The notes beneath the pieces were generated by a model that was not told the origin of the DNA, did no database searches, and saw only the letters and a list, made by a program, of their open reading frames with translations. DNA of 64,000 nucleotides from Thamnaconus septentrionalis (taxonomy: Eukaryota > Chordata > Actinopteri > Tetraodontiformes > Monacanthidae): assembly GCA_009823395.1 (NCBI GenBank), contig CM020509.1, positions 15,733,001 through 15,797,000 on the forward strand, written 5' to 3'. Position numbers and translations under genes: made by a program. Below, piece by piece: positions 9,114 to 50,215 of this stretch; the first letter of the stretch is position 1; every line of letters starts with the position of its first letter.

Positions 9114-9361
9114 TCACGGCCGGTACGTCTTGATGACGTCCTTGATGGGCCTCCTGCAGATGGGACAGCACGCGTTGATCTGCCTCTTGAGCTTCAGCCC
9201 GCAGTCGTTGCACAGGCACATGTGGCCGCAGGTGTAGATGACCGTGTCCACCTCCTGGTCGAAGCAGATGGTGCATTCTCCGTTTTTGCCAGCAGGGGGC
9301 AGCTCCGGAGCGGGGACCGTAGGAGAGACCGGCGGGCTGAGAGGGGAGCTGGGAGCGGTGA
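9114..9361 (-). CDS. neurl1b: neurl1b coding exon 6 (RING domain and stop)
   Basis: 248 nt, residues 508-589. A Pro/Ser-rich lead-in precedes a C3HC4 [18 protein letters not shown] and CCPIC pairs in correct spacing, ending DVIKTYRP then TGA. All eight zinc ligands are present, so the ligase should be active. Confidence 0.96.
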
Positions 9362-12300
9362 CTGAGGCACGGAGAGGTAGAAAAAAAAGATATTAATAAA
9401 GTATAATAATATATAGATTTTAGATGTATAGATTTTTGCTGATTATTTCTTGTGTTTTTTTGGGGGGATTTATTGTGTTTTGCACTGCATTTTCTCCAAC
9501 ACATTCCTACAAAATATTACTCACTTTTTACCATATATCAAATATATCAAATTTGTCCGCAGTGGAGATGCTCACATGAAGTGTTTTTCTGATTTTTATT
9601 TTAACATGTCGTTGGGGTTGTCTTCACTTGTATAAAACAACAATTTAAAATTGCCTTGGCTTAGTTTTGGAGGATCTGTGGGGATCAAATGTCATCGTGA
9701 TATCATGACTCTTTCGGCAGCCAAGAAATAAGCAGAAGCAGGGAAGTGTGAGGCTGCTTCCTTCCAGGCTGCAACATCTGAAAGCTGTTGAAAGTGTCCG
9801 TCTCAATTTTCTGCAGCGCAACGCGATCTTATCGAATGTCTCCAACATTGTGTCCAACACGCCGTCCCGCAATCCAAAAACGCTAATGACAATTGAAAAG
9901 CACTGAAACTAGATAATTATTGGTTGATTTGAAAGAAGAAGTAGTAGTTGCCAATACTTTTTTTTTTTTTTCCAACCCCCTTTTGGTGGTGATTCATCAC
10001 CACCAAAAGCAGCTCCGTGTCCCAACTGTGAAGTTATCTCTCAGCATCAGTCAGTGAAGCATCTCTGCTGGGACCCGGTCAGAGCCATCTGGTATTTGGA
10101 CGGCCAACATTTCATTTGGGGCCTTTGAAAAATACATCCATACATATCTGGAAACCTACCAAGCGACGACTCTGAGGCCGAGGAGGATCTGTTGACGCTG
10201 AAGGCCAGGTCTGAGTCGCTGTCCTCGGGGCTGCTGCTCTGAGAAGTGCTGGAGGACATGGAGGGGGGGCTGGACTGCAGCGTCCCTGTGTCACAATGAC
10301 AAACACACAGAAGAACATTAATATATACAGTTAGATTCATGCAGTCCGGGAGGAAAAATAATGTCTGACTGGGGGTTAATACAATGCACCCACAACGTTA
10401 CGGTCTCGTACTTTACGTACCAGACATCAAATATTACATTTTATACGTTCTTTTTTGTTGCTGTTGTTTTTCTACAACACAGTACGTTCACAAGTAAGTC
10501 TGTGGTTTTTAGTTTCGCTAAGTCGAACATGTCGGAGCTGCTGGGAATTTACGTGGGAGTGGTGGGAGTAGGACAGATAGGTCACAGCTCTAAATTGAAC
10601 AGCCGTTCAGACAGAAACTACTCAGCCGCATTCCTGCAGTCTGGGAACATACAAATTATGTACAGACCCTGGCTGAACTTGGTCAATGGGTAATAATTGG
10701 CTATTTTTGTACATTTTTTTAAATTTTTTATAAAGATTGAGATTTTAGGAGCAAACTGTTTGCTTTTATGAAGTTAAAAAAAAAAGAGAGAGCCTGATGG
10801 CCTTGTCCACACGTACGCAAGTATTTTTACAGCTTTCTATTTGCACTCTCGCCTTTTATTCAAATGCAAACAATTTTTTTTTTTTGGTCACGAAAAACAT
10901 CACTTTCGGGAAACTTCCCTCAGGGTTATAAAAACGGACGTTTCCTCGCTTCTCTTTTTTCGACAGAGTCTCGTCAAAAACCCCTTTGTTGCCCCTGAAG
11001 CAACCGGCGCAACAGCAGCAGCAGGCGGAAGCAACAGACGCGCGTCCAGTTTAATGTTCATCCGCACTCACACCGCAAGCGAGGACGAGTGAGAGGCGTC
11101 ACATTCCCGTTTCCTCCGTTTGTTGTTTACATTCCAACTACAGTGTGTGCGTGTGTTTTACATTTCTGATTTACTTCAGACTGCCGATTGGCCAAAGGAC
11201 CAGTGGGTTTGTGTGAGTTGGATGTTTGTTTTTATATACATGTATATTTAAAACAACACTGCTAAAATAGAACATAAACACAACAGAACAAAAGCAACTG
11301 TTGCCCTTCTTTAAAAAATAACCAACCAATTTAAACATACCTGTCCTTCAACAGTGAACTATTCAAGGTGATTTTTGCTGTAACGAGGAGGACCTGATTC
11401 ATCTGTCGTTCTGCTTCATTCATTCATACAAATTAGGGATGTTAACAATTAATCGATCATCGACTAATTGTTTATTAAGAATTTAATCGATTAAATTCAA
11501 TTACTAGCAATTAAGTGAACATTTTTTACACGGGTAGTTAATATGATAACAGTGTAGTGGAAGGAAAGAGCAATTCACCTGTAGATACTGTGACGGTCGT
11601 TTTAAACAACCTTTTTTTTTAAAAAGGTTGGAAATGTGACCCATTAGAAGTCAATTTAAAGTCAGAGGATAAATGTTTAGGGTGTTTTTACTGTTCTCTA
11701 ACGTAAAAATGGGTCACATTGGACCCTCAACATTATTTAAGGGTTAAATAATGTGTTCCTTACACATTTTTATTGTGAAATTTAGGTTCTCAGGAAAAAT
11801 CGCCGCTTATCAATTAATAGTTAATCGATCAATAAGGTCAATCAACTAACGATTAATGAATGAATCGATAATTTGCATCCCTCATACAAATACAACCAGT
11901 TCCAACATCGCGATCCACAGCTGAGCCCAGCTGGCAGGTTGAGACGCCACCACAGGGAAACTGATCCCGGCAGTTGCACTACGCCGATCACTATCGTGCA
12001 GAATTGCAAACGCTGTCATCGGCACGGAAAACCCGGAGGAGGTCGTTCGTCAGGTGCTTATGCACCAGTGTTGGCGAGTAATCTACTACTAAGTAATACA
12101 CTACTGTAATCAAACTACTCTTTAAGATGGTAATTACATTATAATTACTTTATCAAGTAAGGATTTCGTTACTTTTCCGAAATCTTCTAATTATTTTAAC
12201 AATATGGGCTGTGCAAAAGGCACCGGTGCTGTACATGAGTTTGTTCTGTGAAATGTGCAGTTTGTGTTCAGAGAGCAAACATTCATTTTCATCAATTGCA

Positions 12301-15300
12301 ACGCAATTAGTAATTGATTACTTATGATACAAAGTAGATAAGGAAGTAACTAGATTACTTTATTAAGGGGTAATCAGTAATAGTAGTTGCATTACTTTAA
12401 TGGAGTAATCCCAACAGCACTGTTCTCCACTTACCCAGGATCCTGAGTCTGTTCACGGCCCCGTGCAGGGTGAAGAAGGCCCACAGGACCTGAGAGGAGT
12501 CCACGCAGAGCAGGCGGCCGCGTCCCACTCCATTCACCCCGTGGTGCACCTCCCCGCTGGGCAGCAGCGTGAAGCTGAACACGTCCCCGGGGCAGGGCAT
12601 GGGGAAGCCGCGGTGCACCACCCAGTACTCCTTGCGGTCCAGGAGGACGTCGGGGTCGGCCGGCAGGTCCCCGGCGTGCAGGCTGGCCGGGTCACATGAC
12701 GTCAGGCCGAACATCAGGGCCCCAAAGTAGAGCAGCCCCAGGTGGCCCACCTCCACGTACAGAGTCTCGCCCACGCGCAGCGGCCGGTCGCTGAACACCA
12801 GAGTCCGGCTGCTGTCCATGAAGTTGATCCAGGCGGCCGAGCGGTCGGCGGAGAGCGTCACGTCGGAGCCGCGGACCGGGTGAAAGTGCAAATCGTTGTC
12901 CAGCGAGGAGGCCGGGAGGCCACGGCCGCCCCTGGGCACGCTGAATCCAGTGAAAGCAGACGAGGACGGCGTGGCGGCGGTGGTGGCGGAGGAGTTGGAG
13001 GAGGAGGTGGAGGAGGAGGACGAGGACGAGCAGCAGGGGATGAGCTGCGTGTAGCTGTTGAGCTGGAGGGTGGCCATCTTGGCGGCGGCCGCCTGGTTGT
13101 TCTCCAGCTGATTGTTGCTGTAGTTGGCCGAGTCGTGGCTGCTCTGCAGCAGGTAGGCGCTCAGCCGGGCCGTGCTCAGGCAGCTGGAGCCCACGCTCTC
13201 AGCGAACGCGCTCTCTGCGGAGGATATTGAAAAACCATCACACGGCTTGGACGGCATCGCGGTCAAAGTCAGCTCAGGCCAGCTAGTGAGTTTTGTTTCG
13301 CTTGTGCGTGCGCGGTGGATAACGGCAGTCAGAAGAACGCCTGCGCAAAGTGATAGCAGGAATATGTCGAATAGTAATAAATGCGCAAATTGTACTTTAT
13401 GAGCATTTTTCTCACTGATTTACGGTGCTCTAAAGACTTGCAGGACAGCAGTTATTGTGCATCACGGTACAATCATGTTCCTTTCCGTCTTCATGGCCTG
13501 ATCTGTTTTTTCACCTGATCACATCTTCAACAAGAACAGCTGCGTTTTAGTTCACATTCTTATTTTGCTGCTTTTTCCATTGATTATTATTTTATTTTTT
13601 TTATGTCCAGCCTTCAGGTAAAAAATTAAATTCCCTGAACTTCAGTTCAGTCTTGAGTCCAAATGCTCATCTCTTCAGTCATAAATCACTGAGGAGAAGA
13701 GCATAATTTCACACTTTCAGTGGTCGATGACTGACCATGCACGTGCATTACGAGTCTATGACATGTTTCATTGAAAAACTACGCTCAAAAAAATATGTCA
13801 CAAATCCATTGGGTTTATTTCGCATATTCATCTGATATGCAAAAAAAGGAAAAAAACAAACAAACTTAAAAGGTCACTGGGTGAACCCAGTTAAAGCAGA
13901 TCAAACTGGGGCAGGGAGTACCAGGTCAAGGCTTCCCAATGATGGATTTTACAGCACTATAAGCGGAATGCACACATTCATTCATTCATTCATTCATCTT
14001 CTATACCCACTTATTCATATTCAGGGTCACGGGGGTCTGCTAGAGCCTATCCCAGCTGTTTTAGGGCGAAGGCAGGGTGACACCCTGGACAAGTCGGAAC
14101 GCACACAACAACCAATATTCAACTAAACTCTTGTCCAAGTCCGACAGAAGTACATGTTGTTCTTGTTTTTTTTTTTAATGAAAAATACCACCTGGTTCTG
14201 ATTTTTTTTTTAAATATTACAACAGCGTCCACGCTAAATAAATGTCTTAGATTTGCCACTGTTGGAATACTGAAGACCTCCTTTCACTTTTATCTTGGCT
14301 GCAGAGTCAGAAAAAGCTCCCTGACCACTGAATGGAGTGTCTTCTTCTTTTGTTTTTTTGTCTTATTGTAACAATGCGCTCAGTTATTCACAGGAACATC
14401 TCTACGTATGGGTATAAACGAGTCGGGCCCTCCTCAGATCCCCCCGGTGACTTCTGATGCATTCCGGTATTCCTATTTCTAGGGATGCGGTCGAGTGCGC
14501 TGGCCCCCTCAGCAAAGCTCCTGGGATCTGCCGCATTGACCAAACATGGCCATCGCTCCTGTCGGACCCAAGATAAACACGCCCAGAGGGAACCACAGGG
14601 GGAGAGAGGGGTGATAGAGGAGTCGGGACAGTGACAAAACGCCAGAAAAGTGATACTAGGAGAGTGTCCGGAGTCGCGGCTGGGGTGAGCTGCTGGCCGC
14701 TGAGAACCTCGGCAGCGGTTAAACCCTGTTTATCCGTGCGGGGACGCTGGTGTAAACAGGCCCGTTTCTGTCCCAGGATCTTTGATCCGCGGGCCAGAGC
14801 CTCGGCCCCGCTACCCTCCTCGTCACTCGGCGCCAGCGCTTTAATCGCCTCATTGTACAGCTGCTCGCTAAACTCTCAGCGCGCCGATAAAATTAGCCCC
14901 CCCGCCGGTGTGTTGACACTACGAAAAAAAAAGGTCTGTGCGGTTTCGGGGTTGTCAAAGCACAAACAGGCAAAATTGCAGCTCGAAGCCGCCGACCCGT
15001 CCCGTCCAGGAAACAGCTGCTCGGAATGGACAGGTTGTGAAATCGCTCCTTCACACTTCCTCTCTCTACTCGCTCAGCTTCTCCTAAAAATCTGCGAAAA
15101 AATCACACTCAAAGTGTTTTTCCGAAAAGGTAGCAGCGAGTCGGAGGATGGCTCACCGAGCAGCGTGACCTCCTGCGTGATCCCGTAGATGTCGACGATG
15201 GCCCACAGCGGGCAGCCGATGCTCAGGCCGCAGTGGAAGAGGATGGGCTCGCCGTCGTTGATGCTGTAGAAAACCCTGCCGTGGCGGTCGGCCCAGAAGG

Positions 15301-18300
15301 ACAGCACGTTGTCCTTCAGCGCCAGCCTCTCGGGCAGCGCCTTGGCCCAGTAGCCCGGCCGCGTCACCAGGTCCGGGCAGGCGTACTTGGGGATGTCGGT
15401 GGCGACCAGTTCGCTCGGGTCCAGGCTGGTGAAGCCGAAGCGGAGGGCTCCGCTCCAGCCGCTGTGCACGCCGGTCAGGCGGAGGCGCACCTGGAATGCA
15501 AAAAAATAACAAAAAAGAGGGATGTAGGATGAGTCCTGTCAGGCCGAGGGGCTGTTTGACTCCATCAGCTGATTGAACAGAGTCCACATCAGCTGACGGC
15601 TCAGCTGATTCCACGCTGCAGCCCGCCGGCAAATTTTTCCTCCTACTGCGCGCTATTTAGACTTCTTTAGCCAGCGAGTCTTGCTATGGAAGATTTCCAA
15701 TCCCATTACCAGTACATTCTTTTACACCCCCGACTATAAATATTCAATCTGTCTAAAAGCGATAGAATTTCTCGCTGGAGTCCAGTTGGCTCTGCTGCTC
15801 TAATAAGTGCACTTCACGCCTTGCAGCTTTCCTTGGAGTCCATAAAAGGACAAGGGAAGTCCCAGGACTGGACCCTACAGCCGGATCCAACTGCCACTGA
15901 AGTTTCTCGGCAAATTGAAACGGAAGAGAAAATCAGCACGGTGGCAACCAACCTTTTCGTAGAGGTGGACGGGCCGGTGGCTGAACGTGATGCCGTTGCA
16001 GAAGCTGTTCTTGCGCGTGGCCCGGCGGAGCTGCCCGTCCAGCCGGATGTTCTTGCCCTTGGCGTGCGGATGGAAGCGGGGCGAGTCCACGCCGTCGTTG
16101 AGCGGCGCCGGCGCCGAGGTCCTCCGGTCCACGCCGCCGCCATTGTTGGGCAGGGTGTAGTACTGCCTGCTGACCGCAGCCGGCCGTGGCTGCAGGGACG
16201 GGTCTGCCGGTACAGAGAACCAAGGCGTCGGTGAATCAACCCGACAGGGTAAAATCAGACAGGAAGGCGGCGGGAACAGGAAATGGCACCGCGTGAGTCA
16301 CATTGAAAGAGTTGCTACTGTCAGCAACACCAGCTGTCGGAAAATAACACAGACTTATCCCCACAGAATAGCTCGTTTGTAAGTGGTGTGTGTGTATGTG
16401 AGAGAGAGATGGTCCAGAGGTCACAGGTCAGTTATGTAAAGCAGCCCCACAGTACTCCCGTTCTTACTCATTGTGACAGGCTGAAGCCTCTTTGGCCTTC
16501 AGCGGAGGCTGCAGCCGCACTAAAGCAACAAACTCCAGCACAATCATCATCACTTTCAACTTGTGATCCACCCAACTGCACCTCTCTTTCAAGTATGACT
16601 CAGGACCTTTCGCAAAAAGTCACAGCACCCACGGAGATCACCCCCCTCCACTCTCTACGTATCAGCCCTTACTGGTCCTTTTCAGATACTTTTTGGTGTA
16701 TTTGGACCTGCGCTACGGCTGTCATGAGATCTCATGAGCATGCTTCCAATCTCCTAAGACTCTCCAAAGACTTTGGCAAAGTCCACGCCCAAAACAAACA
16801 GGTTCACTTCTGGTGATTTTCATTGCTATGGCCGGATTTTGTCGCTAATACCACACCTCTCCACTGGAGGCGCACACAGACTCATTTTCCTTTTCCTCAT
16901 CTTCTGACATTCCACATCACCTTGGTCCTCCTGCTGAGTTTCCACCACCTTTTACCCCTCCCAACACCTCTACACCTTCCCAACCGTCCGTCTACCACCC
17001 GCCCTCATAACTAGCAGGGTTCCATTCTGTCAGTCTGTAGGCAACAATGAAACTATTTTATCCAAGCAGACTGTCCCATCCAACAATACCTAATCCAAAC
17101 TAACCTGAGTCAGTCGGCCTCTTCACTGCAAAATCCATCTTAGATATTTAGCAATTGATCGCAATATCACAGGAGAGAGCTTTTTTTTTTTTTAACATAA
17201 TAAGTCCACAACAGATGTGATAAGTCTTTTTTGTGAACGAAGCGGCCTTGGCCCACAGCATAAACAAACCCTGAGTAGGCCCTTTCATTTCTTCAAAGCT
17301 ATCCTTAAAAGAGGAGAATGAATCACACGTAGGCCTGTCAGTGAAGAGATTATCACAACAGGGGGCTTAACTTTGATTTCATCTTTAAAAGGGTCACTGT
17401 CCAACTACGGGTTCCCTTCTTGCATCAAAAGGCAAATAAAACTGGGTGACAAATCAAACGAGACCGGCTGATTATTGGGCTAGACTTGCACTGTTATTGT
17501 TTGGATTTGATATTAAGCTGCAAATGAGCAGATGGAGTGCAGTTTTTCAGGCGTGGGGAGGTCGTTTTTCCATTCTCCTGGGACACGATTCTGTTTAAAT
17601 CCACGGTGATCTTAGTGTAAAGACAATAAGTCAGTGAAATGTTCCACAGTACATTTCCTAAATTAGACATTATCATTGATTGTATTCTAAACTGTGAAGC
17701 AGCAGCGTGAACATCTGTAACATGTCAAATGCCTCTACGCCAAGGACGACTTTTACGTAATCCAGCTTTAGAAGGAGGAAAGTATACCGTGGTGAAAGTA
17801 CGCAGAGAAAACTATGTCCAGAGCCGGCTTCAACGTCACTACAATAATGCGAGCGCAGACCGAAATGGGCCCAAAGCATTATGGGAGGGAGGCATCGCAG
17901 AGGCGGTGAAGTCGTGCAGAAACTCGCGCCACATGTAGCAGAACTAAACTGCATATGAGCAACATCATGAATATTCAAAACAACATTCATTATTCCAACA
18001 AATGATTTTCCACCTATTAAACAGGCCAGTCGAGAATGACATCTCAATGATATCTGGGTTCTGTCAATTTACAATTTACAATTTGCTTCCAACATAAACA
18101 TCTGGGGACTTTTGCACACGGGCATGAAGCAACGCAAAGCTTTGCCAACGCTTCCACTGGTCTCTGCGGCAGTTGTGCACTTCATCAATAGCCGCAAAAG
18201 ACACAACAGAGAGGCAGCTGAGGTCAAGGGAACACTGGATGTGAGGCTTGTGTCTCAACAAAGCGTTGTTTTCTCCTGAACAGATCCCAAGCAGACAACC

Positions 18301-21300
18301 AAAGTTATATAACCCTCTACCAAAATCCTTATTCATAAAACTGGATGATAGCCTAGCAAGGTAACATCCTTAATAAAAGAAAGAAAACAAAGCTGCACCG
18401 ACTGACCAATCAGCTGTGATTGAAAAAAATGGCCTGCCCACTCACTCAAGTGGAAATGGAAGTTTGAGCTAGTTGCCTGAAAAAGAAATGGCCAAAACGT
18501 TATGCAAGATAACTGTGAATGATGCCATTAAATTGCAGTTAGCTCTGAGCCTTATTTGAAATAACAAACATCATTTTGCCTGAAGTCGACCTGAATTACC
18601 TGAATTGGTCACCCTCACATTGTTGTTGCCTGCGTCTGTGAAGCTGAAGCTATCAGTGTCCTGTCCGCATGATTTGTGAGGAACATTGATTTAAGATGTT
18701 GTTCACATGTGTAATTAGCATCATATCCACTCATGCCTTGAATAAGTTAGCCGCACAGTTGGCTATTAAGTTGGCTGTGCTGTGAAGGAGAACAGAATTT
18801 TATTGATCTGTTTAGTATGCGCAGGTTGCAAAGGAACAATATAACAGGCGCAATTTTAATACTTACCAAAAAGAAATGCAGTTTGTGTGTTTGTGACTGC
18901 AAGGAAAAGTAGCGAGTTAAGGATGTTGATACAAGACAGGATGGCTCGGCGGGCTGTAAACATGCCAATTTTCCACAACAAGCTTTCATATCTCTCCATC
19001 TCACAGTGTCAATAGAAAGAAACTTGCTTGGTGGAGCCCGAAACTGATGAAAATAGCATACGTATTTGGATATAGGACATGAAAATCATAGTGCTGCTTT
19101 AATCCCTGCTGGGCTTTTAATGTAAAACGAACACACACAAGTTGAGGCAGCGGATTAGAGACGCCGCTGCCTCACAAAGCTCAGTCTCAGTATGTCCCTG
19201 ACCCGTAAGGTTCCGTCACTTATTGGGGAAAACAGAAACACATTATGTTTAATGCAAGATAATAAAAAAACAGAAAACTGAAAAATAAATATATGACACT
19301 TGGAGGAACTGATATATAAAAATCTTTACGAAAAAGGCGACTATAAACTGTGGCTGAAACTCCTGATTTTGAGTGGATTTCACTCTCTTTTGTCATGTGT
19401 TTTTGTCAGTGAATGTTAAGGACATTAAGCCTCAGCTGCTTCACATGATGTAATGGTCAGTGGTGGCCAGCAAAGTGACTCAGCGAACCTATAAAAACCC
19501 CATTTTCCGATGTGTTGCACACATCTCCAACAGCCATAATGAAAGTCACACACTGCGAGCAGGGCTCCCGCTCCACTGAAGGGACCTGCTCTCGGTCCAG
19601 AAGCCTCAGTCATCTGGCTCTGGTGGGAAAAAACCAACCTCGTTCTGGCTCGGAGGGGGTCTGTTTGGGGCAGGGGAGCGTCACGCAATAAATCACAGCG
19701 AGTCGAGGAGCTGATTTGGGTCCATTGACAAACTGATACCTGCAAGAGCTGAACGGCTGATTTTTGCAAAAACAAAAAAAGTGACATCAAATTGTTAAAT
19801 AATTAATTTCTAATAATTTATTATAAGAATATTTCACCGGCAATAATTTTGATATCTTGGTATGTTATATTTAAATGCAAATGGCTTAACATTGTTCAAG
19901 TTTTTATGGCCTTTCAATGCCAACATGCAAGTGACCCTCAGCAGTGAGATTCAAAATGGTAAACTGAGATTGTACACACAGAGAAGGAAGATATTTATTT
20001 GCTAATTTACCGCGATGATTCTGATTGACTTCAAGAACAGGGCACTGCTGAAATAATAAACGAGTGTAATTTCACTTGGCCCAAGTGTGCAGGTTCTGAC
20101 GGAGCCGCCCTCAACCACAACTTCAGCCAGCATTTGGAGATAAATTTCGCTTTTCCTACAAGAAAAACAAAAACAAAGCCCACAAATCATAAAGCGTGCA
20201 TCATTACACGGACTGGCGGCTTGATGCCCGTAGCCGGACTCGCTCTCGGGGAATCGCGCGCGGCTCCCCCGCGGTGGCGGCGACGCGCGTCTCCCAGTCG
20301 TGGACCAGGCGTCGGGACGAGCCATGTGCGGCCACCGGGACGCCGCGTCCCTACCTTACCGAGCCGAGCTCGCGCCATCGTGGCCAAAAAAAAAAAACCC
20401 ACCGGCGGAGCAAATCACGTTCATGATTGACGATGACACGATTCGCGAGTGCGCGCGCCTCACCTATGAGAGGTTTAGGTGTCGTATTCCCCATGACTGT
20501 GTCCAGAGGTCGCACGCGCCGGCTGAGAAGTTAATCCCGATTGGCTTTGTGTCTCTGTCCATCCGTGTGTCCTCGCTCGCGCTGAGCGTCTCCGGCGGGA
20601 ACGTTGCTTCAGCGTGCGTTTGTCGATGGCTGGTTCCGCCAACTGCTCCTATTTCACGTCAAAGCCCCCTTCGCTCGCTCGCTCGCTGCTGCTGCTGCGA
20701 CAGGCAGGCGGGCAGACAGACAGACAGACAGACACCCCCTACCCACTCTCCAGCCAGCCTCTCCTCCTCCTGTCTTTCTATAGTGGAGGCTCCCACTCCT
20801 GCTTTAAAGACACAGCATGCAGGAGACCCTCGTCACACCCCCATCACCCTCCCTCTAATCTCCTCTCCTCTCCTCTCCTCTCCTCTCCTCCCCTCTCCTG
20901 TCCTCTCCTCCAGAGCATCACAGAGACACTGGAAGGGACTTGTTCAATTATTGAGAGTCGGCGATGAAGGTCAGTCGGTCGGTCGGTCGGTCGCACACCA
21001 CGTCCGGAAACGAGGTAGACGGATTCTATTATGTTTTTAGTCCGTCTCAAGTATCGGAGGTCAGGATGGATGCCACCGACGCCAGATCATTGATGTTAAT
21101 CTAACGCCAGACAGCCTCATCCTGGGGAAATCATCGCCTCTTTAATCAAACGTATTGGACACGGCACATAAGTGGCAGACACTTGATGAAAGTCCGAGCG
21201 CCATATGAGGAAATCCCCTCGTTTTTCCCACCCTATCCTCTTGCCCTCCCGCAGCCTTGACTTTTCTGGGCTCCTCTCAAGCTGTTTCCTGCCTTCTGAC

Positions 21301-22004
21301 CACAGTGGCTCTCTGAGGAATCACGGGGCCTGCAGGGCTTTTAGGGGGACCGAGGCTGTAGGAGGGAAGGGAGTGTTTCTCCCAGTGTAGAGATTTAAGC
21401 TGCGTTCACACCAAATCCAACGTTGTGATTCTTTTTTTTTTTTTTTCTTTCTGGTGAGATCTATTGTGGTCCAGCTGTGATGTTTGTCGACGACACGATG
21501 AACTACAGGGAGTGGACTGTCGCGTCGGTCTTCTGTTGCGTTAGTTATGCCAGGACGCCTTCCTCCAGTCCTGCAGCACAGACTGTTGGTAAGACATAAA
21601 AATGTACAAAATCATAAATTGCTTTTTTTTTTTTCGTCTGGTGTCCGTGCAAAGTGGCTAATTGGAACCAACAAGACAGAGGTTTAGCCCACTTTCCCCC
21701 TACTTCTTCTTCTTCTTCTTCTTCATATTCAGGTTAACTAAACAGACTTGATCCGTATCGCAGACAGAAAAAGCAGTCGAGGCCTCACCGGCTAAATCTC
21801 TTTGAGGACAAGCTTGCCCCCGTGAAACGTGGCATTCGGGCCGACTAAATATAACTCAAAGACAAAAGCATTTGTTTCTACCTCCTCAATGCTGTTTGTT
21901 TTAGCAGGATATGGTAGCTCCTTATATGAGTCCTGGATGAATGGTGTTTGGGGTGAAGCAAAGTAGAGGTTAAAAAAAAAAATCAAACACACACACACAG
22001 ACGG

Positions 22005-22074
<70 letters not shown>

Positions 22075-22767
22075 GGGGCTTAATGAACGGCGTAGTGATT
22101 GCGGAGCTGCGTTAGTTCCAAATTCAAGGAAGTGTGATTTTCTGGATAGTTTTTCAGCGCAATCATTGGAGAAGCCGACTGCGGATGCATTAAAACACTT
22201 CAGTGACACGTCGAAGGAAGTTTTCAACATTTCTGCTCAGATTCTTTTTTTTTTTTTTTTTTTTGCAACCTTTGCCCGAGGAGAGCGACAGCGAAAGGAT
22301 TGTTTCCAGTAAAGCGGTACCCAGAATGACATCTGCTAATGTTCAAGTGACAAAAAAAGCCCGTAGTGGTCAGGCGTGAGCATGGATCGTCGCCTGCCGC
22401 TGTCAAGGAGATTCTCCGCCGAGAGAGAGAGAGAGAGTTTGTGGAGGAGGACAAAAATCAAGACATGCCGCAGTCGAGGCTGTACGAGTCCCCATTTCTA
22501 GCAAACAACTGCGGTTGGCTTCCTGAGGCGTGACCGCAAACATTGCCGGCGGCGACGCGCGTCTCCCAGTCGTGGACCAGGCGTCGGGACGAGCCATGTG
22601 CGGCCACCGGGACGACGCGTCCCTACCTTACCGAGCCGAGCTCGCGCCATCGTGGCCAAAAAAAAAAAAACCCACCGGCGGAGCAAATCACGTTCATGAT
22701 TGACGATGACACGATTCGCGAGTGCGCGCGCCTCACCTATGAGAGGTTTAGGTGTCGTATTCCCCAT
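9114..22767 (-). CDS. neurl1b: Neuralized E3 ubiquitin protein ligase 1B, complete, six coding exons
   Basis: RING-type E3 ligase. In vertebrates the family ubiquitinates Notch ligands of the Delta/Jagged class and drives their endocytosis in the signal-sending cell. Seen: six exons joined at consensus splice sites in compatible phases: 22737-22767 (or its twin 20464-20494), 15953-16203, 15157-15490, 12435-13214, 10160-10285 and 9114-9361. They total 1770 nt, an exact multiple of three (589 residues plus stop; human about 555). Order of parts: MGNT amino end (Gly2 suits N-myristoylation), NHR1 at about 54-206, a serine-rich linker, NHR2 at about 313-465, a second Ser-rich linker, and a C3HC4 RING at 537-578 ending in TYRP. 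The extra length relative to human lies mainly in the first Ser-rich linker. NEURL1B rather than NEURL1 is shown by the MGNT start, the LLESAFA junction and neighbours dusp1 and ergic1. Oddity: exon 1 is duplicated in tandem. Confidence 0.95.
9362..10159 (-). other. neurl1b: neurl1b intron 5
   Basis: Intronic DNA with no exon seen. Contains a perfect 13-bp hairpin at 9980-10009 next to a T run. Confidence 0.8.
9980..10009. other. Perfect 13-bp inverted repeat with 4-nt loop
   Basis: The arms CTTTTGGTGGTGA and TCACCACCAAAAG are exact reverse complements, separated by TTCA, inside neurl1b intron 5. No miRNA-length stem is visible beyond these arms. Confidence 0.85.
10160..10285 (-). CDS. neurl1b: neurl1b coding exon 5 (second Ser-rich linker)
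   Basis: 126 nt, residues 466-507. Encodes [16 protein letters not shown] and then [20 protein letters not shown], matching the acidic/serine linker before the RING in NEURL1B. Acceptor ACACAG, donor G|GTAGGT. Confidence 0.92.
11434..11882 (+). mobile_element. hAT-like MITE, copy 1
   Basis: A non-coding AT-rich element bounded by short inverted ends (AGGGATG ... CATCCCT) and internal ATTAATCGAT-type inverted motifs. It is flanked by a direct repeat CATACAAAT (11425-11433 and 11883-11891), close to the 8-bp target duplication typical of hAT elements. A second copy in the opposite orientation lies at 57272-57667, which confirms the boundaries. No transposase is encoded. Confidence 0.8.
12066..12422 (+). 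mobile_element. hAT-like non-autonomous element abutting a splice donor
   Basis: Ends are CAGTGTTGG and CCAACAGCACTG, with repeated TAATTACTTT/AGTAATC motifs inside, a pattern I recognise from short teleost hAT-derived repeats. The flanking octamers TTATGCAC and TTCTCCAC match at 6 of 8 positions, a decayed target duplication. In the neurl1b transcript orientation it begins at intron position +13, just after the exon 4 donor. Confidence 0.7.
12435..13214 (-). CDS. neurl1b: neurl1b coding exon 4 (Ser-rich linker and NHR2)
   Basis: 780 nt, residues 206-465. Begins [11 protein letters not shown], carries the NNQLENNQ segment shared with mammalian NEURL1B, then a Ser/Thr/Ala-rich linker (about residues 267-291), then NHR2 with the recognisable [26 protein letters not shown] and [14 protein letters not shown] stretches. 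Donor G|GTAAGT. A transposon-like insertion ends only 12 nt beyond the donor. Confidence 0.95.
13215..15156 (-). other. neurl1b: neurl1b intron 3
   Basis: No exon seen. Contains a teleost interspersed-repeat fragment at about 13976-14100. The moderately CpG-rich stretch at about 14580-15050 gives open frames that look like chance. Confidence 0.75.
13976..14100 (+). repeat. Fragment of a common teleost interspersed repeat (retroelement 3' tail)
   Basis: A (CATT)n tract leads into CACGGGGGTCTGCTAGAGCC and CTATCCCAGCTG, then a CACCCTGGACAAG stretch. This is a tail sequence I recognise as scattered in many fish genomes. The exact family (LINE or SINE) is not decidable here. Confidence 0.65.
15157..15490 (-). 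CDS. neurl1b: neurl1b coding exon 3 (rest of NHR1)
   Basis: 334 nt, residues 95-205. Contains the NHR signature stretches [35 protein letters not shown] and the conserved [16 protein letters not shown] segment. The acceptor is CCAG at 15491-15494 and the donor G|GTGAGC. Confidence 0.95.
15491..15952 (-). other. neurl1b: neurl1b intron 2
   Basis: A 462-bp intron splitting NHR1 between residues 94 and 95. Nothing else recognised. Confidence 0.85.
15953..16203 (-). CDS. neurl1b: neurl1b coding exon 2 (start of NHR1)
   Basis: 251 nt, residues 11-94. The acceptor is GGCAG at 16204-16208 and the donor AAG|GTTGGT at 15952. It encodes the short variable amino part and the first strands of NHR1 ([12 protein letters not shown]... 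[10 protein letters not shown]... HLYEK). Confidence 0.93.
16204..20463 (-). other. neurl1b: neurl1b intron 1 (to the proximal exon 1)
   Basis: About 4.26 kb with no exon or clear mobile element. Reading frames are short and unrelated to known families. Confidence 0.7.
20464..20494 (-). CDS. neurl1b: neurl1b coding exon 1, proximal copy
   Basis: Same 31 coding bases, start codon and donor as at 22737-22767, with identical flanking leader sequence. Being nearer to exon 2, it could serve as the start exon on its own. The sequence cannot show which copy is used, or whether both exist in one chromosome. Confidence 0.8.
20495..20960 (-). promoter_or_regulatory. neurl1b: Candidate neurl1b promoter and leader (proximal copy)
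   Basis: CpG-rich DNA just upstream of the proximal start codon, with simple tracts at about 20680-20735 and 20850-20910. I see no obvious TATA box. A matching region follows the distal copy at 22768-23230. Promoter role is inferred from position and composition. Confidence 0.4.
22003..22071. repeat. (CA)n microsatellite in left duplication unit
   Basis: Uninterrupted CA tract, preceded by an imperfect CA stretch and followed directly by ATATGGGGCTTAATG. Confidence 0.95.
22737..22767 (-). CDS. neurl1b: neurl1b coding exon 1, distal copy
   Basis: 31 nt encoding [10 protein letters not shown] plus one base, followed by the donor G|GTGAGG. The phase-1 end joins exactly to exon 2, which starts with two bases of a split codon (Asp) and continues PSLQPRP. 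Mammalian NEURL1B also begins MGNT and has an LPDPS-type junction here. This copy lies farthest upstream for the minus-strand gene. Confidence 0.8.
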
Positions 22768-24247
22768 GACTGTGTCCAGAGGTCGCACGCGCCGGCTGAG
22801 AAGTTAATCCCGATTGGCTTTGTGTCTCTGTCCATCCGTGTGTCCTCGCTCGCGCTGAGCGTCTCCGGCGGGAACGTTGCTTCAGCGTGCGTTTGTCGAT
22901 GGCTGGTTCCGCCAACTGCTCCTATTTCACGTCAAAGCCCCTTCGCTCGCTCGCTCGCTGCTGCTGCTGCGACAGGCAGGCGGGCAGACAGACAGACAGA
23001 CAGACACCCCTACCCACTCTCCAGCCAGCCTCTCCTCCTCCTGTCTTTCTATAGTGGGCTCCCACTCCTGCTTTAAAGACACAGCATGCAGGAGACCCTC
23101 GTCACACCCCATCACCCTCCTCTAATCTCCTCTCCTCTCCTCTCTCTCCTCTCCTCCCTCTCCTGTCCTCTCCTCCAGAGCATCACAGAGACACTGGAAG
23201 GGACTTGTTCAATTATTGAGAGTCGGCGATGAAGGTCAGTCGGTCGGTCGGTCGGTCGCACACCACGTCCGGAAGCGAGGTAGACGGATTCTATTATGTT
23301 TTAGTCCGTCTCAAGTATCGGAGGTCAGGATGGATGCCACCGACGCCAGATCATTGATGTTAATCTAACGCCAGACAGCCTCATCCTGGGGAAATCATCG
23401 CCTCTTTAATCAAACGTATTGGACACGGCACATAAGTGGCAGACACTTGATGAAAGTCCGAGCGCCATATGAGGAAATCCCCTCGTTTTTCCCACCCTAT
23501 CCTCTTGCCCTCCCGCAGCCTTGACTTTTCTGGGCTCCTCTCAAGCTGTTTCCTGCCTTCTGACCACAGTGGCTCTCTGAGGAATCACGGGGCCTGCAGG
23601 GCTTTTAGGGGGACCGAGGCCGTAGGAGGGAAGGGAGTGTTTCTCCCAGTGTAGAGATTTAAGCTGCGTTCACACCAAATCCAACGTTGTGATTCTTTTT
23701 TTCTTTTTTTTTCTTTCTGGTGAGATCTATTGTGGTCCAGCTGTGATGTTTGTCGACGACACGATGAACTACAGGGAGTGGACTGTCGCGTCGGTCTTCT
23801 GTTGCGTTAGTTATGCCAGGACGCCTTCCTCCAGTCCTGCAGCACAGACTGTTGGTAAGACATAAAAATGTACAAAATCATAAATTGCTTTTTTTTTTTT
23901 CGTCTGGTGTCCGTGCAAAGTGGCTAATTGGAACCAACAAGACAGAGGTTTAGCCCACTTTCCCCCTACTTCTTCTTCTTCTTCTTCTTCATATTCAGGT
24001 TAACTAAACAGACTTGATCCGTATCGCAGACAGAAAAAGCAGTCGAGGCCTCACCGGCTAAATCTCTTTGAGGACAAGCTTGCCCCCGTGAAACGTGGCA
24101 TTCGGGCCGACTAAATATAACTCAAAGACAAAAGCATTTGTTTCTACCTCCTCAATGCTGTTTGTTTTAGCAGGATATGGTAGCTCCTTATATGAGTCCT
24201 GGATGAATGGTGTTTGGGGTGAAGCAAAGTAGAGGTTAAAAAAAAAA

Positions 24248-24250
<3 letters not shown>

Positions 24251-24323
<73 letters not shown>
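24251..24323. repeat. (CA)n microsatellite in right duplication unit
   Basis: Counterpart of the tract at 22003-22071, here followed by CCAGGGAAAG and about 150 bp before the shared ATGGGGCTTAATG. Confidence 0.95.
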
Positions 24324-24324
<1 letters not shown>

Positions 24325-24953
24325 AGGGAAAGAAAGATCTGCTATGGCGAAGGGGATTAACAGAGGAAGTGAGTGTGAGCCTGCGATGGAGTCTGCAATC
24401 AAGCTCTGCCTGTAAACACAGCGGTGCTCCAGTAACAAGTGCCGCTTCGCCCTGATTCCTGCATTACTGCTCCACTATGGGGCTTAATGAACGGCGTAGT
24501 GATTGCCGGAGCTGCGTTAGTTCCAAATTCAAGGAAGTGTGATTTTCTGGATAGTTTTCAGCGCAATCATTGGAGAAGCCGACTGCGGATGCATTAAAAC
24601 ACTTCAGTGACACGTCGAAGGAAGTTTTCAACATTTCTGCTCAGATTCTTTTTTTTTCTTTTTTTTTGCAACCTTTGCCCGAGGAGAGCGACAGCGAAAG
24701 GATTGTTTCCAGTAAACGGTACCCAGAATGACATCTGCTAATGTTCAAGTGACAAAAAAAAAGCCCGTAGTGGTCAGGCGGCTTCGCGGATCGTCGCCGT
24801 CGCTGTCAAGGAGATTCTCCGCCGAGAGAGTGAGAGAGAGAGTTTGTGGAGGGAGGACAAAAATCAAGACATGCCGCAGTCGAGGCTGTACGAGTCCCCA
24901 TTTCTAGCAAACAACTGCGGTTGGCTTCCCGAGGCGTGACCGCAAACATTGCC

Positions 24954-27445
24954 CGGCCTTACCCCGTGCGTCTCATCTGGTCATGTAGCGGCGGAAACAA
25001 GTGGCGATGCCGCGGCGGTGACAAGACGCAGCAATTAAATTAACAGAGTTAATTGGGTTAAACGCTGAGCGCAGGAAGAGTTTGGTTACTTATAAACAAG
25101 ACCGGGTGTTGACACAAGCTCCATGCGTTGCAAAGGCTTTCTAAAATATGTACTTTTTTTTTTTTTTGCGCCGCATACACTCTGACGGTAAGGACAAATG
25201 AAAGGCGCATCTGGATGCACTCGTCCGCTTGAGGCTTTTGGCTTTCTTTGCAGCTGACAGCGAGAGTTGCACAGTGCTTGGATGGGATTTTCATCCACTT
25301 CAAAATGCAACCAACTAAGAGGTTTACTGGGGAAAAAAAGGAAAAAAAAAAAAGCTCAGGGACACAGATATTTTCCTGACTACTTTAAGACAAGTAATGT
25401 ACAACGAGCTGACAAACACTTGAATCGACTCTGACTTTGACTTTCCCGGTTTGGTCTGATCGGATGAGTCGGGTTGTGTTGCGGGCTGGACAGTTCGCTC
25501 GCACGTATTTACAATTCCTCCGCCATCACGGCAGTTCGGGAGGGGCGTGCTTGGCGTGCCGGAGTCTAGTGCTCTCTGCACGGGTCACCAAGAGAACCCA
25601 TCCATGTATCATCAGTCAGCAGACAGCGCAGCGACATTTCACTTTGGTGCATATCAACTGTGTGTAAACAGTGAAATGTGAAGCAACACAGTTCTTCGCG
25701 AGAATGTGTTGGTGGTCCCCCTCCGTAGTCAGCCAGAGCTTTAATAACAAGATGTCCTCAGCCTTGGATCTCACCCCTGGACACTGTTAACATAGATATG
25801 TCAGCCTGATTACTCCAGCAGAGGCAAAGATGCCTTCGGAAGTTCTTGCGGGCACTGACGGAGTAAAAGAGCCTTGATTGTAGGCTCAAATTGACTTCAA
25901 CGGAACGGACTCAGACACTGTTAAACTACAGAAAAGAGGACGACGCAGCTGGCCAATGTTCAAATTAAGTTCAATTACTCAGTTTAATATGTGAAAATAC
26001 TCCAAAATGTGATGATTTTACACATTGGTTAAAGAAAGAAAAACAGTACATTGTGCTGTACTAAAGCAACATTTTTCGTATGTGTGACTGGACGCAACGA
26101 AAAATTCTTGACTTTGAAATGGTCCGTACTGTTCTGCTTAAGGCTATGGATGATCTCCACTGCGAAGATTTAACAAGGACCCTTATAGAGATTAGTTATT
26201 TCCAGGGAAAGAAGGCAAGCATGCCTTGTTTTCCCAATGAATCTCGGGCCACAGCAGAGCCCTGGAGCAGCGCAGCCATTGCTCCTTGGAAGGCAACGTG
26301 TTAGACTTGAAGCATTCAAATCTTGGGACTCACAAGTAATGAGAAGGAAAAAAAAGGCAAAAGCAGCAGATGGCTGTTTGTGTGCGGCGGTCTCAGTATC
26401 AGGGGAGGGCTGCTCTCCAAACCTCAGTCACTGATCTAATGGATGAAGTGAGTCATACCCACCTTCAGTATGAAAACGACCATCTCCATCAAACACACAT
26501 GGGCCGAGCACAATGAGTCGCTTTCATAAAACAATGTTTTTCTGGTTTTCCTGGTCATCCCCTCTTTGTGCGAGCGCTGCGCTCCACTCTGGTGCTTTGA
26601 CATCTGTTTTCAATGTTGCGCTCCTGTCTTTTCATTCGAGCCACTCTTAGCAGGCCATCGGAGTCGAGCACCTGCTTTATCGGAAAACCGCAATCAGAGT
26701 TAAACCATTATCAGAGTCATTGCATCATTAAAAAGTCCCTCTTTTAAATGATAAAACCCAAACCGATTTCGGCCTGCGCTGCATTTGCCTTCAATTTGAA
26801 CCTTTTTTTTTTTTTTTTTTTTAATTTTATTAGGAACTCTTGCCATGTGCTAGGTGCCCTGACAGACTGTTCTCATTTCCACAAACCTCAGATCATGAGA
26901 CGGAAAGCTGTGGCAGTCTCGTGCAGACAAAATGCATGCATGCTCGGTTTCACTTCTGCAATTTCTGATTTCAGTAAATTAGAAACACCGCTGTGAAGTG
27001 AATCACCGGCAACGGGGGGAAAACAAAGCAGTTGCCATTGCCATGACAGCCACGCAATAAACTGACAATGGGGGTCAAACATATAAGTGGCATTTACCCC
27101 GTCATTAATGGATGCAGGTTTTAGTAGTTTGCTTTGTGATTCAGACTAATAATCAAAATACTTCAGATATTTACCTGTTCGGAACTGCAAGCTGTGAAGT
27201 GCTTAAATTAGACCAAACCCTAATCTCCTGCCTGTCAAACCATTCCACCTCCCATGCAGAGCGCTGCCTTTTTAGAGCCTCTCTCAGCTATTAATTAGGT
27301 GAGATACCGCAGGGAAAATTGTGTGATTTATTCACGCATTGCATTTTGAATAAGGAACATTTCGCAGCGTGTAGTCGTGCTGCAACATCGTTGCGAAAAC
27401 AAAAAAACAAACAAAAAAAAATGTTCTGTGCTCACCAGTTTTTTC
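24954..27445. other. Intergenic DNA between the two tandem duplications
   Basis: No gene recognised. Contains long T runs near 25148 and 26800. Upstream parts of the neurl1b transcription unit could extend here, but nothing shows it. Confidence 0.6.
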
Positions 27446-30044
27446 TTTGGTTTTCAATATTATTTTATGACCTTTCAGCTGGAAAGAGTTTTGCTCAGTC
27501 GCTACCCAACTGCACATTTGCACAATAAACCTGAGAACTCTCAGATGCTGAGGAAGGCTGAGGTTTGACAAGGCAGCAAGTAAAACTTTGATTGCATGCA
27601 AATGTGTTTTCACTGCGAGCGATAAAAGTGATAAGGTTGAGAATACACATGCAAAATGCAGAATTTTTTATTCAATTTCAATGTCAATGGATTCCTTGAA
27701 CTGTTACATGCTGACCCCTTGAAGCAAATGATAACCAGCAGAGATGTGAAGTTGTAATGGGAGGGACTCCTGGTCCATTTTCCATTGTCAGAGTCTAAAT
27801 CATGACATTATGTAACGTGTCAGCCAATGACATTACCCGACCCCTGTAATACTAAGACAATGGAAACAGGCGGCAGTTATGTGAACATCTTCACTGCTGC
27901 TTCTGCTGCTGCTGCTTCTGCTGCTGTTTGGTGTTTTAAGGCATGCATAACTGTCAATAAATCATTGTTGCACAAAAAAAAAATAAATGTCTAGTTTGTG
28001 GTGGCTGGACATGAAACGTTGACATGGCTCCACTAAAATGTTGTTTTAGGCCTCTCCGTCAGTGGGAGACGTGCTAAAAATGGCCCTTCAATGCATTTAA
28101 CCAGATGCACAGACAGTGCTCTTCCTCCATCTGTTCTATTGTCTCGGTGTTCTCTGGGATGAGGGGCGGATGCACCACCGAAGGAGATGCAGGAAACACT
28201 CTTGGCCTAGAGCTGGAACCGCCAACTTTTTTTGCCTTTGGTGTGTAGGGGCTTGTGATGCACGTGCAACTTTTGGTCTAAGGCCTAATGAAGGTGTTTC
28301 CTGAAGCATACATCTCGATTTTTCTAGCTTTTTTACGATTTTGATCCAAATATCTTTTGTTTTATGGTGTAAGGCCTGTGGACTCAACAGCAGCTAATAA
28401 CAAATGTACTTATTGTAAAGATTGAAGAGCTTATATAAGACATTTATTTATCCAGTCATTTCAAGGATTTAGGAAAACATCTCTGCAGCATTTTTCTGAA
28501 ATGTACGAAGCAAATCTAGTTTTCTTAATTATTCAAAAGGGGACAAAGATGAAAGAGAACCCTAAAAAGGCCTAATAGTGAGCCGGGTGCTTGTCAACGG
28601 CAATAAAGTGAGTGTTTTTTGCGGTATATGTGGGACGTGGGACAGATGTTGTTGACTCATAGCTTTTTACTGCTGCGCCACAATCCTGTGCCATAGTCAC
28701 ACTAATCCTCTCAAGCGCATGCAAGCTAAAGCTGTGATTTTTTTTTTTTTTGCAGCATCTGAGAAATGACAACAACAAACCCACACTTAAGTTAATCCTG
28801 ATTGAACCAGTTACTTTATTGGAATTTTTTTCAATGTTCAAAGAGAAATCGGCTCCAGAGCAAAGAAGGCCTTGTCTGAATGCCGTTATCAGCTCCCAAA
28901 ATTCTGAAGTCGTGATTGTATTGCCCTGACTTATTATAAGAGCTGTGTCGATGGCAATTTCATGTCTGAAAGTGCCGTTCGTAAACAGTAGCTTTCATCG
29001 CTAGCCCTACATTTAAGATTCAATTTCTCCCATGCAGGAAGCAATGACGGCTCACTGCCTCCTGAGGACAACCTGCAACCTTTTTCTCGACTGTGACTCT
29101 GGTGGTGGTCGGTCACATCAGTTTGTCCTCCCTCTTGAGCAACAAGTCGAACATTCACTCCAAGGTGCTCTCTTACCTCACATGGACATCTTGAAAAGCA
29201 TCAATATGAACTATTTTCAGCTGGTCAGTGTGACCTTGCCTACCAGAGTGGAAAGTCTTGGTAGCTACAAAAACAAGCAAGGCATGGCCGGTCCTGCAGC
29301 GTTGAAGATGCTGCAATAGTTTCACAATAGATTTTGCAATATTTTCTTTTAAGTTTGGGACTGAACGTTTCCTTATTAATAAGAATTTTCAACGTACCCG
29401 ACCGGATCTTGGCTCGCCATCGGGTGGAAATGCTCGACAGCGCGAAGGAAAACCTCCCCAGAGAGATATCATGAACTCTCCCATCTTGTTATTATGCAAA
29501 TTACATTTGACAAGTCTTTTCATCTTGTCTGTTATGTTAGCATCAATCTTAAAAATACAAGAGTCATGAATCTGATACATGTTTTAAGAACTGCACGTAG
29601 GTTTGGGAACGTTTTTGAGCCTTTAAATCAGAGCTTTTCAATCATTTCATTTATTCCCAGTTTATCACAAATAAAAACCACATTGTTGGAGCAATTCGGT
29701 TTTTTGAGGTAGAGTCAATGTTCCTGAGAAGTGTGTGTTTTCCATCACGCCATACAGTAAAACAGTGTTCGGGATGTTTTCTTTATCCATGCTCACGTGC
29801 AGAAGCAGTTATTTTTTCTTCGGTCATTGACTTCGTCCATATTCCTCAAATTATATGACAAATAAAACTACCAACACAGTCAATACGTTAAACCTCATTT
29901 GGTGCTTTCCCACAATCAAACATAAACAGATCTGAGAATTCCCTGCACGTTGCTAGAAGTAGCCGTGTACACGCTGGGCTGGCGCCCCTTGACGACGCAA
30001 TCCTTGACCGCAGAGGTTCTCGCCAACCGGAGAAGGTCTCCGGT
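27446..30044. repeat. Tandem duplication 2, left unit
   Basis: A block of about 2.6 kb beginning TTTGGTTTTCAATATT at 27446 recurs head-to-tail from 30045. It ends with CGCCAACCGGAGAAGGTCTC near 30040. No gene is seen inside; the open frames shared by both units (for example 29032-29319) have no recognisable domain. Confidence 0.95.
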
Positions 30045-32636
30045 TTTGGTTTTCAATATTATTTTATGACCTTTCAGCTGGAAAGAGTTTTGCTCAGTCG
30101 CTACCCAACTGCACATTTGCACAATAAACCTGAGAACTCTCAGATGCTGAGGAAGGCTGAGGTTTGACAAGGCAGCAAGTAAAACTTTGATTGCATGCAA
30201 ATGTGTTTTCACTGCGAGCGATAAAAGTGATAAGGTTGAGAATACACATGCAAAATGCAGAATTTTTATTCAATTTCAATGTCAATGGATTCCTTGAACT
30301 GTTACATGCTGACCCCTTGAAGCAAATGATAACCAGCAGAGATGTGAAGTTGTAATGGGAGGGACTCCTGGTCCATTTTCCATTGTCAGAGTCTAAATCA
30401 TGACATTATGTAACGTGTCAGCCAATGACATTACCGACCCTGTAATACTAAGACAATGGAAACAGGCGGCAGTTATGTGAACATCTTCACTGCTGCTTCT
30501 GCTGCTGCTGCTTCTGCTGCTGTTTGGTGTTTTAAGGCATGCATAACTGTCAATAAATCATTGTTGCACATAAAAAAATAAATGTCTAGTTTGTGGTGGC
30601 TGGACATGAAAGCGTTGACATGGCTCCACTAAAATGTTGTTTTAGGCCTCTCCGTCAGTGGGAGGCGTGCTAAAAATAGCCCTTCAATGCATTTAACCAG
30701 ATGCACAGACAGTGCTCTTCCTCCATCTGTTCTATTGTCTCGGTGTTCTCTGGGATGAGGCGGATGCACCACCGAAGGAGATGCAGGAAACACTCTTGGC
30801 CTAGAGCTGGAACCGCCAACTTTTTTTGCCTTTGGTGTGTAGGGGCTTGTGATGCACGTGCAACTTTTGGTCTAAGGCCTAATGAAGGTGTTTCCTGAAG
30901 CATACATCTCGATTTTTCTAGCTTTTTTACGATTTTGATCCAAATATCTTTTGTTTTATGGTGTAAGGCCTGTGGACTCAACAGCAGCTAATAACAAATG
31001 TACTTATTGTAAAGATTGAAGAGCTTATATAAGACATTTATTTATCCAGTCATTTCAAGGATTTAGGAAAACATCTCTGCAGCATTTTTCTGAAATGTCT
31101 GAAGCAAATCTAGTTTTCTTAATTATTCAAAAGGGGACAAAGATGAAAGAGAACCCTAAAAGGCCTAATAGTGAGCCGGGTGCTTGTCAACGGCAATAAA
31201 GTGAGTGTTTTGCGGGTATATGTGGGACGTGGGACAGATGTTGTTGACTCATAGCTTTTTACTGCTGCGCCACAATCCTGTGCCATAGTCACACTAATCC
31301 TCTCAAGCGCATGCAAGCTAAAGCTGTGATTTTTTTTTTTTTTTTGCAGCATCTGAGAAATGACAACAACAAACCCACACTTAAGTTAATCCTGATTGAA
31401 CCAGTTACTTTATTGGAATTTTTTTCAATGTTCAAAGAGAAATCGGCTCCAGAGCAAAGAAGGCCTTGTCTGAATGCCGTTATCAGCTCCCAAAATTCTG
31501 AAGTCGTGATTGTATTGCCCTGACTTATTATAAGAGCTGTGTCGATGGCAATTTCATGTCTGAAAGTGCCGTTCGTAAACAGTAGCTTTCATCGCTAGCC
31601 CTACATTTAAGATTCAATTTCTCCCATGCAGGAAGCAATGACGGCTCACTGCCTCCTGAGGACAACCTGCAACCTTTTTCTCGACTGTGACTCTGGTGGT
31701 GGTCGGTCACATCAGTTTGTCCTCCCTCTTGAGCAACAAGTCGAACATTCACTCCAAGGTGCTCTCTTACCTCACATGGACATCTTGAAAAGCATCAATA
31801 TGAACTATTTTCAGCTGGTCAGTGTGACCTTGCCTACCAGAGTGGAAAGTCTTGGTAGCTACAAAAACAAGCAAGGCATGGCCGGTCCTGCAGCGTTGAA
31901 GATGCTGCAATAGTTTCACAATAGATTTTGCAATATTTTTTCTTTAAGTTTGGGACTGAACGTTTCCTTATTAATAAGAATTTTCAACGTACCCGACCGG
32001 ATCTTGGCTCGCCATCGGTGGAAATGCTCGACAGCGCGAAGGAAAACCTCCCCAGAGAGATATCATGAACTCTCCCATCTTGTTATTATGCAAATTACAT
32101 TTGACAAGTCTTTTCATCTTGTCTGTTATGTTAGCATCAATCTTAAAAATACAAGAGTCATGAATCTGATACATGTTTTAAGAACTGTACGTAGGTTTGG
32201 GAACGTTTTTGAGCCTTTAAATCAGAGCTTTTCAATCATTTCATTTATTCCCAGTTTATCACAAATAAAAACCACATTGTTGGAGCAATTCGGTTTTTTG
32301 AGGTAGAGTCAATGTTCCTGAGAAGTGTGTGTTTTCCATCACGCCATACAGTAAAACAGTGTTCGGGATGTTTTCTTTATCCATGCTCACGTGCAGAAGC
32401 AGTTATTTTTTCTTCGGTCATTGACTTCGTCCATATTCCTCAAATTATATGACAAATAAAACTACCAACACAGTCAATACGTTAAACCTCATTTGGTGCT
32501 TTCCCACAATCAAACATAAACAGATCTGAGAATTCCCTGCACGTTGCTAGAAGTAGCCGTGTTTACACGCGGCTGGCGCCCTTGACGACGCAATCCTTGA
32601 CCGCAGAGGTTCTCGCCAACCGGGAGAAGGTCTCGG
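30045..32636. repeat. Tandem duplication 2, right unit
   Basis: About 2.59 kb, nearly identical to 27446-30044. Differences are mostly one-base changes in runs of G, C, A or T plus scattered substitutions (for example a GTACG/GTCTG difference near 28504 and 31098). It ends at AAGGTCTCGG, after which the sequence is unique. Confidence 0.95.
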
Positions 32637-49920: not shown

Positions 49921-50215
49921 AGTAGGGCGACGCGACAAAAATGTCAAATCCAAATACATAAAGCTTGAGCGGTGGCGAGGCGGAAGTTGAAGTTGCGTGT
50001 AAAGAGCCGTTTGTCTGCCGAACTTCTAAGTACGAGGCGGCGGGTCCTTTGTTCCGGGGTTTCAAAAAAAGGGCAGAAGAAGAAAAAAAATCGCTGTGGG
50101 AGAGGGGGAAAAAGTTTTTAGACTATCTAAATTACTCCTTTCTTCTTTTGAGCGGGCTTTGTCGTTCTAGGTTTCTACTTAGTTTTGCTTAATTCAAGTT
50201 TTTACAAAGAATCCC
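49921..50215 (-). other. dusp1: Probable dusp1 5' UTR
   Basis: About 295 nt between the predicted start site and the ATG. No in-frame upstream ATG before the coding start is evident. Boundaries rest on the TATA position. Confidence 0.5.

Follow-up and report, generated by a model that had tools for sequence, protein, structure and literature searches.

The window analysed here, the whole 64,000-nt stretch of Thamnaconus septentrionalis DNA, contains neurl1b on the minus strand; the promoter is therefore expected to the right of each of its start exons. A Pfam search of open frames gave matches for 2 of 10 frames in one set and 1 of 10 in another, and the long exon of neurl1b has an open frame in which Neuralized was identified (7e-37). 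The proximal start exon, the 31-nt sequence ATGGGGAATACGACACCTAAACCTCTCATAG, was found in two identical copies on the minus strand, each followed by the donor gtgagg. Splicing of the left copy to exons 2-6 yielded a CDS of 1,770 nt and 589 amino acids in which phase is kept and no frameshift occurs (Table 1).

A protein search with neurl1b returned 551 homologues, and the figures given below rest on 120 of these 551. The best homologue among the matches listed, P0001, has 588 amino acids and is encoded on a public contig of 2,140 bp. Its first 18 residues read as in the proximal start of the window, and by eye the protein differs at two places; the contig evidently represents a spliced transcript, either of this species or of a close one. 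The closest homologues among the matches listed carry PF07177 and PF13920, the latter being of RING type. Starting from the proximal exon, one spliced frame thus holds both the Neuralized domain and a C-terminal RING. The gene had been named neurl1b in a sequence-only reading of this DNA, and the name is borne out by the open frame of exon 1 plus five exons and by the shared N-terminus of P0001. In a literature search on neurl1b, the word neurl1b appeared in none of the matches listed.

Table 1. Positions of the neurl1b exons, the duplicated units and the proposed middle piece in the window
Feature	Position	Strand	Basis or remark
neurl1b exons 2-6	15953-16203, 15157-15490, 12435-13214, 10160-10285, 9114-9361	-	Pfam and splicing in phase
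First duplication, copy A	20276-22547		Self-BLAST and alignment; presumed right end of left assembly piece
neurl1b proximal start exon, copy A (10 residues + G)	20464-20494	-	Exon search; in-frame splicing
First duplication, copy B	22548-24953		Self-BLAST and alignment; presumed left end of middle assembly piece
neurl1b proximal start exon, second identical copy	22737-22767	-	Exon search
146 bp private to copy B of the first duplication	within 24323-24475		Adjoins CA microsatellite; single in window
Middle piece, 7,497 bp (presumed)	22548-30044		Deduced from the borders of both duplications
Second duplication, copy A	27446-30044		Self-BLAST and alignment; presumed right end of middle piece
Second duplication, copy B	30045-32637		Self-BLAST and alignment; presumed left end of right assembly piece
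neurl1b distal start exon (MGNNLGTNRLSSCIPLGLCEFPLSHKEKNHDSSAD + G), likely	40254-40359	-	106 nt, donor gtaaga, phase 1; isoform alignment

A likely distal start exon of neurl1b

Farther upstream we found an exon whose peptide starts with MGNNLGTN and aligned with the N-termini of five fish isoforms (P0006, P0007, P0010, P0015 and P0017). Many fish neurl1b records begin with MGNN or a similar start peptide and then continue into the same exon 2. When start types were assigned by patterns in 120 of the 551 homologues, 68 were proximal, 23 distal and 29 neither. It is therefore very likely that neurl1b possesses two start exons unlike each other and separated by about 20 kb, and the distal exon is likely a genuine second start. 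Fish neurl1b is annotated with alternative first exons (isoforms such as X1 and X2), and the window fits this pattern in having more than one start, with the proximal and the distal MGNN types both present. Such alternative first exons are mutually unlike and lie about 18-20 kb apart, whereas the two copies of the proximal exon are the same exon twice. With starts arranged in this way, both duplications described below fall within intron 1 of the isoform that begins at the distal exon.

Two adjoining duplications and the differences between their copies

Self-BLAST of the window showed that the proximal start exon lies in a duplication of two units, arranged head to tail and directly adjoining. 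Near-identical head-to-tail units with these borders, each with the same 31-nt exon and donor, had been proposed from the sequence alone, and both statements agree with our alignments, in which the exon copies are identical. One block (20276-22060 versus 22548-24322) has 98.7-98.8% identity and the other (22068-22550 versus 24473-24957) 95.7-96.1%; the two are set apart by a CA microsatellite that is unequal between the copies and by the 146 bp private to copy B. The CpG observed/expected ratio was 1.28 in the 500-bp window from 20000 and 1.25 in that from 22500, values that are promoter-like. There is no run of N anywhere in the window, and hence none at either joint.

A second directly adjoining duplication, with 98.9% identity between its copies, was detected by the same self-BLAST. 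It begins 2,492 bp past the end of the first, with the proximal start exons to its left and the distal one to its right. The sequence-only reading had mentioned neither this second duplication nor the minus-strand orientation of the gene, the 146-bp difference or the indel-rich profile described below. Together the borders of the two duplications suggest that both doublings are the two ends of one piece of 7,497 bp, whose left 2.4 kb repeat the preceding sequence and whose right 2.6 kb are repeated by the following sequence. A single misplaced piece thus explains both duplications together.

At both joints (22547/22548 and 30044/30045) exact microhomology amounted to 0 bp, and the first duplication could be extended by three bases in BLAST with one gap. 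Blunt joints are as for arbitrary contig ends; at the joints of true tandem duplications microhomology is frequent, though not required. As a separate observation, copy A of the second duplication ends, by eye, in an inverted repeat (30026-30044, immediately left of the second joint) whose 8-bp arms match perfectly around a loop of 3 bp; copy B has no such repeat.

We then characterized the differences between the copies. In minimal-edit alignments of both duplications, 42 indels were counted versus 14 substitutions, divided into 25 indels and 7 substitutions in the first and 17 and 7 in the second. Homopolymers of three or more bases hold 24 of the 42 indels, and 31 of the 42 fall in homopolymers or other simple repeats when classified by hand; outside simple repeats, the same classification left 11 indels versus 12 substitutions. 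About six of the substitutions are clean transitions. As a control, ordinary repeat pairs of at least 120 bp and at least 80% identity were taken from 314 kb of the same assembly. The 23 pairs had 428 mismatches to 30 gap openings, versus 22 to 35 in three alignments of the duplications made with the same program (Fisher P 1e-21, a value that is too small since several pairs share family members). Restricting the control to the 11 pairs of at least 90% identity gave 87 to 4 (Fisher P 1e-14, again too small, as these pairs are non-independent). Homopolymer content was 0.04-0.06 in three control repeats versus 0.09-0.10 in the duplications, a deficit that hardly accounts for the twentyfold odds ratio. 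Judged by this profile, the copy differences look mainly like residual sequencing error rather than divergence, which would mean that the copies have hardly diverged and that polishing failed at both duplications. On its own, such a profile does not tell an artefact apart from a true duplication of very recent origin, since truly identical copies also polish badly.

The distribution of the differences was examined along the units. Of the 19 indels in the leading 1.2 kb of both units, 15 are losses in copy B, compared with 11 of 23 in the remainder (one-sided P 0.0096 for the leading part, in a test chosen post hoc). An excess of copy-B losses at the unit starts is as expected for thin contig starts. 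Clustering of differences toward the unit ends was modest in the first duplication (P 0.027) and absent in the second (P 0.44). Losses in the middle piece versus its neighbour numbered 15 versus 10 in the first duplication and 6 versus 11 in the second. The absence of frameshifts from the 1,770-nt CDS makes the errors look local.

We also asked how often such structures occur elsewhere. The 200 kb of flanks contained no direct duplication of at least 100 bp and at least 90% identity within 30 kb, except for one short tandem array at C9:15820352 (264 kb including the window), and 50 kb of another chromosome, searched with the same criteria, contained none. In the 474-Mb assembly, the first unit of the first duplication matched two places, both at this locus, together with repeat-like matches of up to 95 bp; part of the second duplication (30600-32630) likewise matched two places, both here. 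These matches led us to reject a haplotig elsewhere in the assembly, and the lack of dispersed copies of the same two query sequences speaks against a mobile element. Searched as a whole, the 7,497-bp piece gave short repeat matches, and its own place was absent among the 39 of 132 candidates scored. The only N run in the 264 kb, 80 bases long, lies at C9:15640533, about 92 kb left of the window; the 6 kb on each side of it shared no plus-strand match at 1e-5.

A probable assembly origin and its rivals

We consider it probable that both tandem duplications are false and were made by the assembly. We infer a history of three pieces, [...-22547], [22548-30044] and [30045-...], which would overlap successively by 2.3-2.6 kb and would have been laid end to end unmerged. 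The middle piece could have been a 7.5-kb contig set between its two neighbours; alternatively, untrimmed bridging sequence could have been used to fill a gap. A simple fill with a single raw read is not favoured, as losses prevail in the middle piece in one duplication and in its neighbour in the other. Under this history, the true locus would contain the unit of the first duplication once, the segment 24954-27445 once and the unit of the second duplication once. It would accordingly have one proximal neurl1b start exon with its promoter, in addition to the distal exon. The sequence-only reading had left two branches, a false duplication or two equivalent promoters. The former is better supported, by indel-dominated differences, a twin 2.5 kb away, blunt joints and the lack of a comparable duplication in 250 kb of other sequence.

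This structure resembles described cases. Homotype false duplications are described by Rhie et al. 2021 (PMC8081667) as occurring near contig boundaries, being about as long as a read and being betrayed by differing consensus quality; tandem copies at contig ends and of roughly read length are what we propose for both duplications. The copies found here are likewise adjacent, near-identical and a few kb each, with differences of sequencing-error type (42 versus 14, and gap openings to mismatches of 35:22 versus 30:428 in the controls). In the scheme of Rhie et al. a gap stands between the copies, whereas none is present here, so that a gap-filling or unmerged-join step is needed. According to Ko et al. 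(PMC9516828), false duplications are marked by gaps, by depth and by discordant reads, and incorrect gap filling is mentioned as well; in the same source a gap most often separates the copies, and its absence here concerns a usual, not a required, feature. Kelley and Salzberg 2010 (PMC2864568) described duplicated overlapping contigs that double exons while transcripts use one copy. Their neighbouring contigs with overlapping ends, placed side by side, are like the arrangement proposed here. However, their cases were ascribed to differences between haplotypes and abound in SNPs (124,432 SNPs versus 22,960 indels for chimpanzee), whereas the differences here are chiefly indels. The published descriptions of false duplications (PMC8081667, PMC2864568) are thus matched in part.

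Several points weigh against an artefact. The missing N-gap at both joints makes the feature unlike usual false duplications. Short-read polishing would also work poorly on a true identical duplication, which could then display an equal excess of indels. Clustering toward unit ends, modest in the first duplication and absent in the second, is weak as support for an assembly origin, the 146-bp difference and the clean transitions could be allelic or paralogous, and the rarity of such duplications elsewhere is based on 250 kb only.

A possible, though not the preferred, form of the assembly error is a heterotype false duplication, in which neighbouring pieces would come from different haplotypes and both alleles would have been kept. 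The presence or absence of 146 bp at the microsatellite looks allelic, as do the roughly six clean transitions. However, allelic differences in vertebrates are mostly substitutions (PMC2864568), and here indels are three times commoner. On balance the false duplication would be homotype rather than heterotype, and the extra copy would be judged unreal under a heterotype origin too.

Most of the remaining probability falls to a real tandem duplication of very recent age, in which the proximal promoter and start exon would have been doubled and the second duplication would have arisen in the same event. We regard it as improbable. Two chained backward template switches 7.5 kb apart could produce such a duplicate-normal-duplicate pattern, and the same protein would be made from either of two equivalent proximal starts. 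Transcripts initiated at the farther copy would splice past the nearer start exon, which should be without a working acceptor. Both joints are continuous without N, exon and donor are intact in both copies, the units tested match two places that are both at this locus, and failed polishing of identical copies could yield indel-rich differences. A few bases of microhomology are the usual trace of template switching, however, and both joints are blunt (0 bp exact; three more bases with one gap in the first duplication). Two back-jumps 7.5 kb apart would be required, while the 250 kb sampled elsewhere contain no comparable duplication, and the local differences are of error type.

An older tandem duplication, with likeness kept by gene conversion or selection, would reconcile high identity with the 146-bp difference, but it is very improbable, as substitutions should then dominate as in the other repeats compared, and none of the 120 homologues listed of the 551 has two MGNT[TA]PK motifs in one protein, a feature that protein records are hardly able to show.

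Consequences and neighbouring genes

If left in the assembly, the probably false extra copy would provide neurl1b with a spurious second promoter and start exon. Analyses of copy number and of promoters would be skewed as well, and reads would map with lower quality over a CpG-rich promoter. The twin duplication pinpoints the spot of the assembly for inspection, namely one 7.5-kb piece, and the distal start exon, which lies about 20 kb upstream and is likely genuine, can be told apart from a probably false alternative start. Were the event true, it would represent a natural change of promoter dosage in a ubiquitin ligase of the Notch pathway, with the protein unaltered.

Two further genes were noted on the minus strand of the window. 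The interval 48602-50025 contains a dusp1-like gene with a DSPc domain, whose best PDB match contains DUSP1 (1e-39); a weak rhodanese match in this gene stays below the Pfam cut-off. The segment 4087-4446 is a probable first exon of a melatonin receptor, with melatonin receptor type 1A as its best PDB match (5e-15).
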